Part shown: positions 37,040-42,803 of the stretch, in pieces
Position numbering within the stretch: the stretch's first letter is position 1
Layout: the number at the start of each line of letters is the position of its first letter
Made by a program: the position numbers and the translations under genes
NCBI GenBank assembly: GCA_039028155.1
Contig: JBCCIS010000021.1
Span: forward strand, 1 to 64,000
Length of the DNA stretch: 64,000 nucleotides
Origin: Pseudomonadota bacterium
Lineage (GTDB): Bacteria; Pseudomonadota; Alphaproteobacteria; SP197
Direction of reading: 5' to 3'
Notes under the pieces: generated by a model
The model's input: only the letters and a program-made list of their open reading frames with translations
Database searches by the model: none
Told to the model about the DNA's origin: nothing

Positions 37040-38683
37040 TCAGCGCGAGATCACCGGCAGCACGATATGCGAAGGCCTGGCCGCGTCGTGGTGAATCGTC
37101 TGTTGCGCCTTTCGCGTCGTCGCGCTGTGAGCGAATGGCGCATCCGTGTTGGGGTTCCTGTCATAGCGCGGGAAATCGCTGCTTGAGATCTCGATCCGCA
37201 GGCAGTGCCCGGCGGGAACCTCGTAGCTGACGGACCACATGTCGACATCAATGACGTAGACCTTACCGGGTTCGAGAAGCTGGCGGCCCGCATCTTGATC
37301 GCGCAATGCGGCGCGCTGGATGCCATCCTGGATCAGGTTGACCCGGCCGTCCGGGAAGACGTCAACGAGGGCGACCATAAAGTCAGTGTCGGGCGCGTCG
37401 CTCTCGATATGGAGGGTGGCTTTGAGCGGGCCGGTGATCTCGGACGGTTCGTTCAGCGGTTCGCTGGTAAAGGTCAGGACGTCGGGCCGCGCCTCGATCG
37501 ACTGACGATCGTCCATTGCCTGGCAGACGCGCCACGCATCTGTCCCTTCGCTCCACGCGACCGGGTCGGCGGGGTCGTAGGTGCAGTGGTCGGCTGGCTC
37601 GTCATCCGGCGCGTCGCGGTCCAGACGGCCGTCGTCCAAACTGTCCCCGGCCGAGCCGGCGCTGTGGAGGTACCAGGTCTGCAGTGCGCAGCCCTCGGGC
37701 GGCCAGGTATCGGCATCGCGCCATCCGTTGTCGGCGAGAGTGAAGTAGTGAACCAGACCCGCTGCGCCGAAACCGTTCTCTTGTTCTTTCAGATAACGAT
37801 CGAAGAAGCCAAGAAAGACCTGCCAGCGATGCTCGCGGTTGCCTTCTCCGAGCCGGTTGAGGCCGACCCGCTGTGTCGTGTCGGAGGTGCAGTAGTGATC
37901 CCACGGCCCGATCATCAGGTGGTTGCGGCGGGCCGACGGGTCGGCGTCGCGCAGCCATTGCCACTCTTCCAGCATGGGCCCGGTGAAGTTGTCGTACCAG
38001 CCCGTCCAATGCAGGACGGGTATGTCGATCGCCAGCATGGCGTCCAGCCGGTTGCGCGCGGTCCAATAGCGCATGGCGCGTTCGGGGTGCGCGATGACAT
38101 CGTCGAAGTAGCTGCAGGGAAGACCGGCCTGCTCGGCCATCTCGGCAAGCGGCAGGTGGCGCAGATCGAGTACGTCGGTGTCAGCCGCGATCCGGCCCAG
38201 CATGTAGATGCCCCAGATCCCCTCGCTGGCGAGCTTCAGACAGCCCGAACGGTAGCTCCAGTTGTAGCGGTCGAAACCCTGATTGCCCGGCGCGATGCAG
38301 ACCAGCGCGGGTGGTTTGAGCGAAGCCGCGGCAAAGCAGGTATAGCCGTAGTAGGAATTGCCCCACATGCCGACACGACCGTTCGACCACGGCTGATCGG
38401 CGATCCACTGCACGGTGTCGAATCCGTCCTTGGCCTCGGCGTCAATGTCGCTGGCGTCGAAGGTGCCGCCGGAGCCCCACTTGCCGCGCACGTCCTGCAC
38501 CACAAAGGCATAGCCGGCGTCATGCAGGCGATCGATCAGATCGGGCATGGTCCCGAACGACGTCGCCTTGCCATAGGGCACCCGCGACAGAACGGCGGGA
38601 AACGGACCGTCGCCGTCAGGCAGGTGAACATCCGTCGCCAGATCGACGCCGTCGCGCATCGCGACCATGGTGGTGTCCATCAC
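37040..38683 (-). CDS. CocE/NonD family hydrolase (copy A)
   Basis: This 547-residue enzyme has the alpha/beta hydrolase with nucleophile GNSYYG (Ser in G-x-S-Y-x-G), an N-terminal MRDGVDLATDVHLPDGDGPFP and a C-terminal jelly-roll X-Pro-dipeptidyl-peptidase domain (from about 400, ending RKAQQTIHHD.. PSHIVLPV). The family includes cocaine esterase and glutaryl-7-ACA acylase; these cut acyl or aminoacyl bonds. No signal peptide. It follows copy B after seven bases, forming a tandem pair with nearly parallel motifs. Confidence 0.88.
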   Translation of the reverse strand: MMDTTMVAMRDGVDLATDVHLPDGDGPFPAVLSRVPYGKATSFGTMPDLIDRLHDAGYAFVVQDVRGKWGSGGTFDASDIDAEAKDGFDTVQWIADQPWSNGRVGMWGNSYYGYTCFAAASLKPPALVCIAPGNQGFDRYNWSYRSGCLKLASEGIWGIYMLGRIAADTDVLDLRHLPLAEMAEQAGLPCSYFDDVIAHPERAMRYWTARNRLDAMLAIDIPVLHWTGWYDNFTGPMLEEWQWLRDADPSARRNHLMIGPWDHYCTSDTTQRVGLNRLGEGNREHRWQVFLGFFDRYLKEQENGFGAAGLVHYFTLADNGWRDADTWPPEGCALQTWYLHSAGSAGDSLDDGRLDRDAPDDEPADHCTYDPADPVAWSEGTDAWRVCQAMDDRQSIEARPDVLTFTSEPLNEPSEITGPLKATLHIESDAPDTDFMVALVDVFPDGRVNLIQDGIQRAALRDQDAGRQLLEPGKVYVIDVDMWSVSYEVPAGHCLRIEISSSDFPRYDRNPNTDAPFAHSATTRKAQQTIHHDAARPSHIVLPVISR

Positions 38684-38690
38684 GCCGCGC

Positions 38691-40439
38691 CTAGCGATGG
38701 ATTACCGGAAGGACGATGTGCGACGGCCGCGCGCCGTCATGATGGATTGTCTGCTCGGCCTTGATGGTGGTCGCGCTGTGACCATAGGTGCCGCCCGTGT
38801 TGGGGTTGCGGTCGTAGCGGTTGAAGTCGCTGCTGGAGATCTCGACGCGCAGGCGGTGGCCTTTCCCCAGCTGATAGCTGGTCGCCCACAGATCGATGGG
38901 CAGCGCATAATCCTCGCTAGGGTCAATCGGTTGCGGTGCTTTATCGGGGTCGCGGAAGCCGGTGCGCAAGATGCCGTCCTGGATCATGTTGACGCTGCCA
39001 TCAGGAAAGACGTCGCAGAGCACGACGGTGAAGTCCGTGTCGGTCGCGCTGGACGCTGCGTGCAGCGTCGCGGTGACGGGACCGGTCAGTTCCATCGGTT
39101 CGTCAAGCGGCGCGCTCGTGTAGACCAACACATCGTCGCGCGCCTCGATCGGACGCCGGTCGCCCATAGCGCCGGCGAGCGACCAGCAATCCCACTCGAG
39201 GCTCGCCGCGATCGGATTGTCGGGGTCGTAGACAAAGCGGTCGGCTGGTTCGTCGCCGGGCGGCTCCGGTGTCAAGGTGCCGTCGCCATCGGCCGTGTTC
39301 GCTTGTCCCGCGCTATGCAGATACCAGGCCTGGTAGTCCGTTCCCTGTAGCGGCCAGTCCTCGGCATCGCGCCAGGTGTCGGCGCCCAAGGTGAAATAGT
39401 GGATCGGACCGTTCTTGCCGAAGCCGTTGTCGAGCCCCATCAGGTAGTGGTCGAAGAACGCGACGACGTGATCCCATCGGTGAGGAAAGGCTGACGCGGG
39501 CACCGGCATCAGGCCGGCGCGGCCCAACTTGTCGGCGCTGCACTCGTGATCCCACGGACCGATCAGGACGTGGTTGTGACCCGCTGGCGCGTTGGCGTCG
39601 GCCAGCCTGCGCCAGTCCGCCAGCATCGGACCCAGATAGTTGTCGTACCAGCCGTCCCAGTGCAGTACCGGGATGCGGATGGTCTCATAACCGGCCAGCA
39701 GGCTGCGTTCCTGCCAGAACGGCGAGGGCACCGGGTTGGCGATGACCTGATCGAAATAGCTACTGGGGATGCCGGCGGCATTGGCCATCTCGGCCAGCGG
39801 CAGATGCCAGGGATCGATCTTTGAGAGGTCCTGGTACTCGCGCGCCATCATGGAGATCGCCCACATGCCGACCGTGTTCATCTGCAGGCAGCCATTGCGG
39901 AACGTCGCCGTGCAGCGGTTCATGGTGATGTCGCCGGGCGCTATGGCGACAAGTGCTGGATGACCGCTGACGCCGCCCGCGTAGCTGGTGAAGCCGAAAT
40001 AGGATTCGCCCCACATGCCGACCTTGCCGGTCGACCAGGTCTGGCCGGCAATCCAGTCGATGGTGTCATAGGCGTCGTTGACCTCGACCCCGCCGACATT
40101 GGGATCGAACGTGCCTTCCGATGCCCACTTGCCGCGCACGTCCTGGGCGACATAGGCGTAGCCCTTGGACGCGAAGTAGGCGCCGATGATCGGCATGTAG
40201 CAATAGGGTTCGGTCTTGCCGTAGGGCATGCGGGTCAGCACCGCCGGAAACGGGCCGTCGCCTTCGGGCAGGTAGACGTCAGTTGCCAGGCGCACGCCGT
40301 CGCGCATGGCGATCATCTGGTCGGACAGAACGTGCTCCAGCGACGCTCTGTCCGGCGTGTCCGTGGGCAACCGCTCAAACGGCGGCGGCGCCGTCTTCTT
40401 GTCCATCTCCGCCGCCAACCCACCTTCGACCGCTGCCAT
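38691..40439 (-). CDS. CocE/NonD family hydrolase (copy B)
   Basis: This 582-residue protein parallels copy A throughout: MRDGVRLATDVYLPEGDGP, nucleophile GESYFG, HWDGWYDNYLGPML, and the same C-terminal end PSHIVLPVIHR. It has an extra N-terminal leader of about 35 residues without a signal peptide. The close match to copy A, including the same final residues, shows tandem duplication. Start at ATG 40439; an upstream in-frame start at 40490 is less convincing. Its promoter shares the gap with a Fur-like box that faces the other gene. Confidence 0.87.
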   Translation of the reverse strand: MAAVEGGLAAEMDKKTAPPPFERLPTDTPDRASLEHVLSDQMIAMRDGVRLATDVYLPEGDGPFPAVLTRMPYGKTEPYCYMPIIGAYFASKGYAYVAQDVRGKWASEGTFDPNVGGVEVNDAYDTIDWIAGQTWSTGKVGMWGESYFGFTSYAGGVSGHPALVAIAPGDITMNRCTATFRNGCLQMNTVGMWAISMMAREYQDLSKIDPWHLPLAEMANAAGIPSSYFDQVIANPVPSPFWQERSLLAGYETIRIPVLHWDGWYDNYLGPMLADWRRLADANAPAGHNHVLIGPWDHECSADKLGRAGLMPVPASAFPHRWDHVVAFFDHYLMGLDNGFGKNGPIHYFTLGADTWRDAEDWPLQGTDYQAWYLHSAGQANTADGDGTLTPEPPGDEPADRFVYDPDNPIAASLEWDCWSLAGAMGDRRPIEARDDVLVYTSAPLDEPMELTGPVTATLHAASSATDTDFTVVLCDVFPDGSVNMIQDGILRTGFRDPDKAPQPIDPSEDYALPIDLWATSYQLGKGHRLRVEISSSDFNRYDRNPNTGGTYGHSATTIKAEQTIHHDGARPSHIVLPVIHR

Positions 40440-40544
40440 AGTGTTTTCCCCGCCTCGTCGTTTCTGTTTCAATTGTCGCCGGCCCGTCATGGCCTGGCCA
40501 TCTGTTTTGCGAGGGCGCCTTCAGATAGCCTTTTTCTGAGTATT

Positions 40545-40563
40545 GCGAATGCGAATTATTCTC
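40545..40563 (+). promoter_or_regulatory. Fur-like iron box
   Basis: GCGAAT-GCGAAT-T-ATTCTC has the three-hexamer F-F-x-R layout of the classical Fur box, and TGCGAAT-T-ATTCTCA (40550-40564) also fits the 7-1-7 form with one mismatch. It lies 45 bases before the GTG of the orphan gene at 40608, in the right place to repress its promoter, and about 106 bases from the start of the divergent CocE gene. Confidence 0.6.
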
Positions 40564-40607
40564 AGTATGGTGGTCGGAAGGCCATAAGAAAATTGGGGAA
40601 TGATCAC

Positions 40608-41132
40608 GTGCAGCCCATGCCGCAAGAGGATATCGAGACAGGCTGGCCAGAGTTGATGGCGGAGCTCGTTCTTGGCGAACGCTTTCTGGTTTGGTCGTTT
40701 CGCCGCTGGGTTCTTGGCCTGACTGAAAACGACGGCTCTCACTGGAACGCCGTCTGGCGTGAGTTCGATGGCCGCATGGAACAGCCGGATGGCCCTGTCG
40801 CCTTGGCCAACCTGGCCAAGCTGATCCGCGCATTGCAGCTCCACGCCCGCCGCCAGATCCAACACCACCACCCCTGCTGCCCATGCCTGGGCGCTGACGA
40901 GGCGTGGTTGGTGAACTTGGTCGCGTCCTGTCAGCATCGTCAGGGTGAATTGACCCGGAACCTTGCCGCCTGGATGGTCGCGCCGGAGGCCTCCGATGGC
41001 CTTGTCGAGGCAGGCAGCCGTCTGGCTTACATGATGTTGCGCCACGACCTGCATCTGCCCTATCGCGCGAGAACGCCAGCGGAAGGAACCTGGCAGCCGC
41101 AGCTTTCGTTGGCTGGCGGTTCCCTTCACTGA
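40608..41132 (+). CDS. Hypothetical protein behind a Fur-like box
   Basis: I do not recognise this 174-residue protein. It starts with GTG at 40608, with GGGGAA seven bases before it. It is soluble and helical with many Trp, His and Arg residues, and holds HHHPCCPCLGADE near residue 86, a His3/Cys3 cluster that could bind a metal, plus a later CQHRQ. Together with the Fur-like box this suggests an iron- or metal-responsive function. The window has no siderophore or TonB genes next to it, so the function cannot be named. Confidence 0.6.
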   Translation: MQPMPQEDIETGWPELMAELVLGERFLVWSFRRWVLGLTENDGSHWNAVWREFDGRMEQPDGPVALANLAKLIRALQLHARRQIQHHHPCCPCLGADEAWLVNLVASCQHRQGELTRNLAAWMVAPEASDGLVEAGSRLAYMMLRHDLHLPYRARTPAEGTWQPQLSLAGGSLH

Positions 41133-41770: not shown

Positions 41771-41852
41771 GCAGGCAGCGCGGCGCATTGACCGGCCGGT
41801 CAGCCGTCGCCACGTTCGCCCGTGGGATCGGTTTATCGTTTTGGGAGCTTTT

Positions 41853-42803
41853 ATGTCCGTCTTAGACGTCGTCCCGCCGCCCGGCGCGAAGTTCACCGAT
41901 CCCGATATCACCGCCAAGGGCGAGCGCAGGGCGCATGTCGCTCTCAACCAACTCCAGACCCTTTGGATCAACACGGGCACGCTGTGCAACTTGGCCTGTG
42001 CCGGCTGCTACATCGAATCGAGCCCGCGCAACGACCGGTTGGTTTACATCACCGCCGACGAGGTCGCCGCCTACTACGACGAGATCGAACGAGACGGCCT
42101 GGCGACCGAGGAGATCGGTTTCACCGGCGGCGAGCCATTCATGAACCCGCAGTTCATGACCATGGTCGAGGATGCGCTCGTGCGCGGCTTCCGGGCCCTG
42201 ATCCTGACCAACGCCATGCGCCCCATGATGAAATGTGCCGACGAGCTGCTGGCGCTAAAGGAACGCTTCGGCGATCGCCTCATCGTGCGGGTTTCGGTCG
42301 ACCACTACACCCAGGATCTTCACGAGCTGGAGCGCGGTGCGCGTGCGTGGCAGACAACGTTGAACGGGCTGATCTGGCTGGCGCGCAACGGGTTCAGCAT
42401 TCACGTCGCCGGCCGCACCATGTGGGGTGAGGAAGAAGCCCGTCTGCGCGACGGCTTCCGTAAGCTGTTTGCCGAGAACGGCATCCCGGTCGACGCCGAC
42501 GATCCCGCGGCCATGGTCCTGTTCCCGGAAATGGACCTTGCCGCCGAAGTGCCGGAAATCACCGAAGCCTGCTGGGGCATTCTGGGCGTCCACCCCGATG
42601 ACATGATGTGCTCGAGCTCGCGCATGGTGGTGAAGCGCAAGGGTGCCGAACAGCCAGCGGTCGTCGCCTGCACCTTGCTGGCCTACGAGCCGGACTTCGA
42701 ACTGGGCGCGACGTTGGCCGATGCCAAGCGCTCGGTGAAGCTTAACCACCCCCACTGCGCCAAGTTCTGCGTCCTCGGCGGCGGCTCCTGCAGCAAGGCG
42801 TAG
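41853..42803 (+). CDS. Radical SAM protein of unknown function
   Basis: This 316-residue protein has the radical SAM cluster motif C45-x3-C49-x2-C52 (CNLACAGC) and a GGEPF motif (FTGGEPFMN) that binds SAM. Three further Cys at the C-terminus (HCAKFCVLGGGSC) may hold an auxiliary cluster, as SPASM/Twitch enzymes do. ATG 41853 is used, behind GGGAG. No substrate peptide or maturation partner is recognisable next to it. It might modify a peptide or small molecule; this is inference from fold only. Confidence 0.8.
   Translation: MSVLDVVPPPGAKFTDPDITAKGERRAHVALNQLQTLWINTGTLCNLACAGCYIESSPRNDRLVYITADEVAAYYDEIERDGLATEEIGFTGGEPFMNPQFMTMVEDALVRGFRALILTNAMRPMMKCADELLALKERFGDRLIVRVSVDHYTQDLHELERGARAWQTTLNGLIWLARNGFSIHVAGRTMWGEEEARLRDGFRKLFAENGIPVDADDPAAMVLFPEMDLAAEVPEITEACWGILGVHPDDMMCSSSRMVVKRKGAEQPAVVACTLLAYEPDFELGATLADAKRSVKLNHPHCAKFCVLGGGSCSKA

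Follow-up and report, generated by a model that had tools for sequence, protein, structure and literature searches.

A putative Fur operator precedes a gene of an unnamed, widespread family of small helical proteins in Alphaproteobacteria

What might be the role of a gene that belongs to no named family and is preceded by what looks like a Fur box? The stretch of DNA analyzed here, referred to below as the window, comprises 64,000 nucleotides of an alphaproteobacterial contig (JBCCIS010000021.1, assembly GCA_039028155.1) and carries a GTG-initiated gene for a 174-amino-acid protein at positions 40608..41132 on the + strand. The first-pass annotation, made from the window sequence, described it as an orphan of no known family with a possibly metal-binding His/Cys cluster, lying behind a Fur-like box and with no siderophore genes beside it. 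We asked whether the box holds up as a Fur site, whether the gene is really an orphan, and what its product might do.

Results

The candidate operator, TGCGAATTATTCTCA, occupies positions 40550..40564 (+ strand), leaves 43 bases between its end and the GTG (40608), and is an exact match to TGMGAATNATTYKCA, fitting the 7-1-7 palindrome of the Fur-type sites of this genome at a position near the promoter. The repeat reaches further left, to position 40545 (GCGAAT-GCGAAT-T-ATTCTC), and GCGAATGCGAATTATTCTC at 40545-40563 is separated from the start codon by 44 bases, so that the box does lie shortly before the GTG, as first noted. Reading the surrounding sequence, we found a Shine-Dalgarno-like GGGGA (40595..40599, + strand) 8 bases 5' of the GTG and a possible but weak promoter, TTGCGA-N17-TATGGT, around the operator (40543..40571, + strand). 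This candidate agrees with the consensus at 8 of 12 bases, which is under the threshold of the promoter scan, and the scan reported none at these positions; both hexamers also occur at locus L013. In a relative with 86% identity, the operator is kept as TGAGAATTATTCTCA.

The best match to TGCGAATNATTCGCA in the window is the operator site itself, with one mismatch. Sites with up to three mismatches to TGCGAATNATTCGCA number 3 in the window, against 3.8 expected, which is no excess over chance. Because the window alone therefore left the status of the box unsettled, we turned to the whole 5.3-Mb genome. It has 13 places (21 strand hits) that differ from TGMGAATNATTYKCA by no more than one base, whereas the reversed pattern, used as a control, gave 2 strand hits. 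The genes downstream of these sites include those for bacterioferritin (TIGR00754, E 1e-75), imelysin, HemP, and an extracellular solute-binding protein, as well as a multicopper oxidase, an NADH dehydrogenase-like protein, and an OprB porin; part of the 13 sites may be chance matches. The genome has five matches to the FUR superfamily, including a Fur-like protein (so named for its best match, with a score under the NCBIfam equivalog cut-offs), Irr (above the cut-off), and a Zur-like protein. Judged from sequence, the motif is distributed over the genome as a Fur motif would be, and the motif count together with the iron genes downstream of other sites bears out the initial reading of the box as Fur-like in layout.

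The description of the gene as an orphan proved wrong. Searches with the single protein yielded the 86% identical relative, a paralog in the same genome (on contig C3), and distant relatives, and a class-wide search with a 15-row profile gave hits in 111 of the 387 Alphaproteobacteria genomes covered, spread over 75 of 264 genera. One further genome with a relative, beyond the Alphaproteobacteria, came from a phylum-wide sample, and Paraburkholderia records also contain one. The window protein matches the family profile (A1/A2) and has Arg32, Asp97-Glu98, and the C-terminal His. The annotation's statement that it belongs to no known family was confirmed: no Pfam or NCBIfam family matched it, even at E = 1, and no consistent match to these libraries emerged among 67 family members. 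A PDB sequence search with the family profile gave nothing under E 0.2, PADLOC gave no hits, viral contigs held no family relative, and a literature search found no description of the family. We concluded that this is an unnamed family of small helical proteins, widespread and mostly alphaproteobacterial.

To score boxes upstream of relatives, we took the best 15-base site and counted it as a box when at least 13 of the 15 positions agreed; because this scheme was written by hand after about six sites had been viewed, shuffle, neighbor, and second-set controls were run as a guard. A box was present within 250 bp of 58 of 72 members and within 150 bp upstream of 54 of 72, whereas under the same scoring dinucleotide shuffles gave a mean of 0.9 and a maximum of 5, and neighboring genes gave 9 of 226; with related genomes among them, the counts do not represent independent events, yet the gap to neighboring genes of the same genomes is large. 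The usual position is 50 to 90 bp before the start, and the flanking columns prolong the repeat in the manner of overlapping Fur sites. Of 46 members fetched later as a second set, 20 had a box, 10 more stood directly behind hemP, and 16 had neither, and 4.3% of the control pieces of this set carried a box. Boxes also stand ahead of members in named Azospirillum species. The search upstream of homologues that the first-pass annotation had suggested was thus carried out; the box, whose absence from orthologues would have told against the annotation, is present ahead of most relatives, and on this evidence the family would usually be under iron-starvation control.

Two loci (L094 and L096) consist of divergent pairs of family paralogs, each pair with one Fur-type box in common. 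Separately, tandem family copies in large genomes (L154-L157) are without a Fur box and have a conserved CTCTTCAAATCTAGAA-like stretch upstream, possibly the site of another regulator. A check for Irr-type (ICE) boxes gave partial matches only, both ahead of these tandem copies and ahead of hemP.

The intergenic region that holds the operator is common to the 174-residue gene and a divergent CocE/NonD hydrolase gene (38691..40490, - strand; TIGR00976, E 8e-132), so that the box has a divergent start on either side, that of the hydrolase about 60 bp away. It might then mainly serve the hydrolase, with the small gene a bystander, but the box accompanies the family gene in genera where the neighbor is a different one, and we regard this arrangement as highly improbable. 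As far as tested, the hydrolase gene is outside the system. The neighbors of the small gene in the window (the CocE/NonD hydrolase, a P-loop kinase, and a radical SAM protein) have no evident iron role, and siderophore genes are indeed absent beside it. Two CocE/NonD-type hydrolase genes (Peptidase_S15/PepX_C) adjoin in tandem at 37040-40490 (- strand), and the best NCBIfam match of the radical SAM protein (41841-42803, + strand) is to the Rv1681 family, far under the cut-off. Returning to the small gene, we consider it very likely, from its sequence context, that it is under Fur-type control and belongs to the family described here.

In the Rhodobacterales, the hemP stop often overlaps the start of the family gene or lies just ahead of it, and in Rhodobacter sphaeroides under iron limitation, hemP itself is upregulated 34.7-fold (PMC3413700). 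An annotated "hypothetical protein" comes next after "hemin uptake protein HemP" in Tateyamaria, Roseivivax, and strain SC52, and two of these three annotated examples, Tateyamaria and Roseivivax, lie inside heme/iron transport clusters with genes for a heme/iron ABC transporter, Dps, imelysin, and a TonB-dependent receptor. Elsewhere, ferritin, imelysin, redoxin (peroxiredoxin), and cytochrome c' were each found three times as immediate neighbors. Most members are surrounded by unrelated genes, without a partner that recurs next to them consistently.

The paralog in the same genome (L050, G000:C3, 5607-6691) has a near-match of its own to the Fur-type box. A bacterioferritin gene, itself preceded by such a box, is found about 4 kb away, and the paralog lies 14 bp ahead of a peroxiredoxin-like gene. 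This last arrangement, the presence of Redoxin among 3 of 111 scanned neighbors, and the CxxC or CC pairs seen in many members would suit a redox role, in which a thiol protein, together with a peroxiredoxin, would guard iron proteins or repair them when iron is low or peroxide stress sets in. The peroxiredoxin link is limited to a few genomes, however, and of 67 aligned members, four have no Cys in segment 86-94 and 16 have a single one; we consider such a role rather unlikely.

The same alignment separates conserved from local features of the protein, whose conserved residues are Arg32, Trp34, Arg82, His87, Cys91, Asp97, Glu98, and His174. Arg32 and Glu98 are invariant among the 67 aligned members, and Asp97 is found in 65, Arg82 in 60, Trp34 in 59, Gln109 in 56, and Cys91 in 55; at position 87, 35 members have His and 22 have Arg. 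The His/Cys cluster noted at the outset is present, as HHHPCCPCLGADE (residues 86-98; 40863..40901, + strand), which runs into helix 96-109, but its conservation is only partial: most members keep Cys91, though fewer than keep Arg32, Asp97, or Glu98, and the HHH and Cys90/Cys93 are lineage specific. By these counts, the frame that carries HHH and CC is more conserved than these two local features, and metal binding by the cluster is a guess.

The other conserved feature is the C-terminus. Window positions 41124-41129 encode the final two residues of the protein, which are [LVI]-His in most members (the His codon is 41127..41129, + strand). Of 67 members, 54 end in His and 5 in Asn, whereas 1 of 111 neighbor proteins ends in His; Leu, Val, or Ile precedes the terminal His in 51 members, and the terminal His is also found in Azospirillum, roseobacter, and Paraburkholderia members. 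Twelve of the 67 lack Cys91, and eight of these twelve still have His or Asn as the last residue, an observation that disfavors a single metal site for the whole family. We considered a joint metal site of Cys91 and the terminal His and rejected it, since the two co-occur only loosely (P = 0.03 without correction for ancestry).

AlphaFold models, built on seven-row alignments, are predicted to be all or nearly all helical for both the window protein (mean pLDDT, 76) and a Limimaricola member (mean pLDDT, 86), with the Cys/His turn running into helix 96-109. Structure searches of the PDB with the two models gave no clear match, which is no proof of a new fold; ferritin-like, AhpD/carboxymuconolactone decarboxylase, and other helical folds reached at best a Z of 4.9, with Foldseek E values above 1. 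By-eye inspection revealed no evident signal peptide in the window protein, and it is probably cytosolic.

Residues 156-174 form a low-confidence tail in the window model, as might be expected if the conserved C-terminus were a docking element. On this view the protein would not bind metal but act as an adaptor in iron starvation: its [LVI]-His end would dock on a protease, an iron enzyme, or a regulator as partner, and the role of the Cys/His turn would be mostly structural. The enrichment of the terminal His and its retention, or replacement by Asn, in most members that lack Cys91 fit this reading, and Arg32 and Glu98, both invariant, might form a structural salt bridge. The Limimaricola model, however, leaves almost no tail (its last helix extends to residue 154 of 155), and the want of a consistently adjacent partner gene also speaks against an adaptor. 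We judge this role unlikely, while taking it as the main rival to iron or heme handling.

Discussion

We propose that the 174-residue gene is a single-gene, Fur-controlled unit encoding a helical cytosolic accessory protein of iron or heme starvation, a proposal to which, as a whole, we give a little less than an even chance. When iron is present, Fe-Fur would sit on 40550-40564, apparently overlapping the promoter, and the gene would be off; when iron is short, the protein would be made. That control takes the form of repression we hold with good confidence, given how Fur is known to behave where its site overlaps a promoter; the hexamers of the candidate promoter are weak matches. The protein might then handle or sense cytosolic iron or heme during starvation, with the Cys/His turn ahead of helix 96-109 as its working site. 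We put this iron or heme role forward tentatively, as the least secure part of the proposal; it is inferred from the regulation, the neighbors, and the Cys/His turn. The one to three Cys residues that 63 of the 67 aligned members have in segment 86-94 favor the proposal, as do the conserved box and the iron-linked neighbors; against it count the 12 members without Cys91, the unrelated surroundings of most members, the structure searches without a clear match, and the 16 of 46 second-set members with neither box nor hemP.

What is new here is an undescribed protein family; the regulation is of the known Fur kind. The iron circuit is among the best studied in bacteria, yet a family present in more than one-quarter of the sampled Alphaproteobacteria genera, mostly with a Fur-type box of its own, is missing from the family libraries searched. 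It may be, though we hold it less likely than not, that the family is a core part, so far undescribed, of how Alphaproteobacteria cope with iron starvation: helical proteins kept under iron control across varied operons and lineages and bearing either a new iron/heme site or a C-terminal His recognition motif. The box, Arg32, Asp97-Glu98, and the terminal His offer concrete targets for knockout or binding work, and the hemP-linked members point to cultured marine bacteria as working systems; cultured carriers of the family include Azospirillum lipoferum (AZOLI_RS22260) and Tateyamaria (BWR18_RS19680).

Among known iron proteins, FhuF-type ferric reductases bind a [2Fe-2S] cluster through a C-terminal CC-x10-C-x2-C motif; this motif is not present in the window protein, which has no Pfam match, and the identification was rejected. 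HemP/HmuP (PF10636) is iron linked, like the family, and directly upstream of the family gene in Rhodobacterales, but it is a separate and much smaller protein; family members have no PF10636 match, and identity with HemP/HmuP was rejected as well. In Ruegeria TM1040, genes of the heme cluster are upregulated 41- to 201-fold in iron stress, and this iron-induced roseobacter cluster includes a hypothetical gene, "hyp" (PMC5225302). This gene may be another gene of such clusters rather than a family member. The closest regulatory parallel is in Caulobacter, where the targets of the Fur regulon include hypothetical proteins and a palindromic 19-bp Fur site overlaps promoter elements at two operons (PMC3751524); the site at the window gene is likewise palindromic and would likewise overlap the promoter, as at the Fur-repressed iron-starvation genes of that organism.
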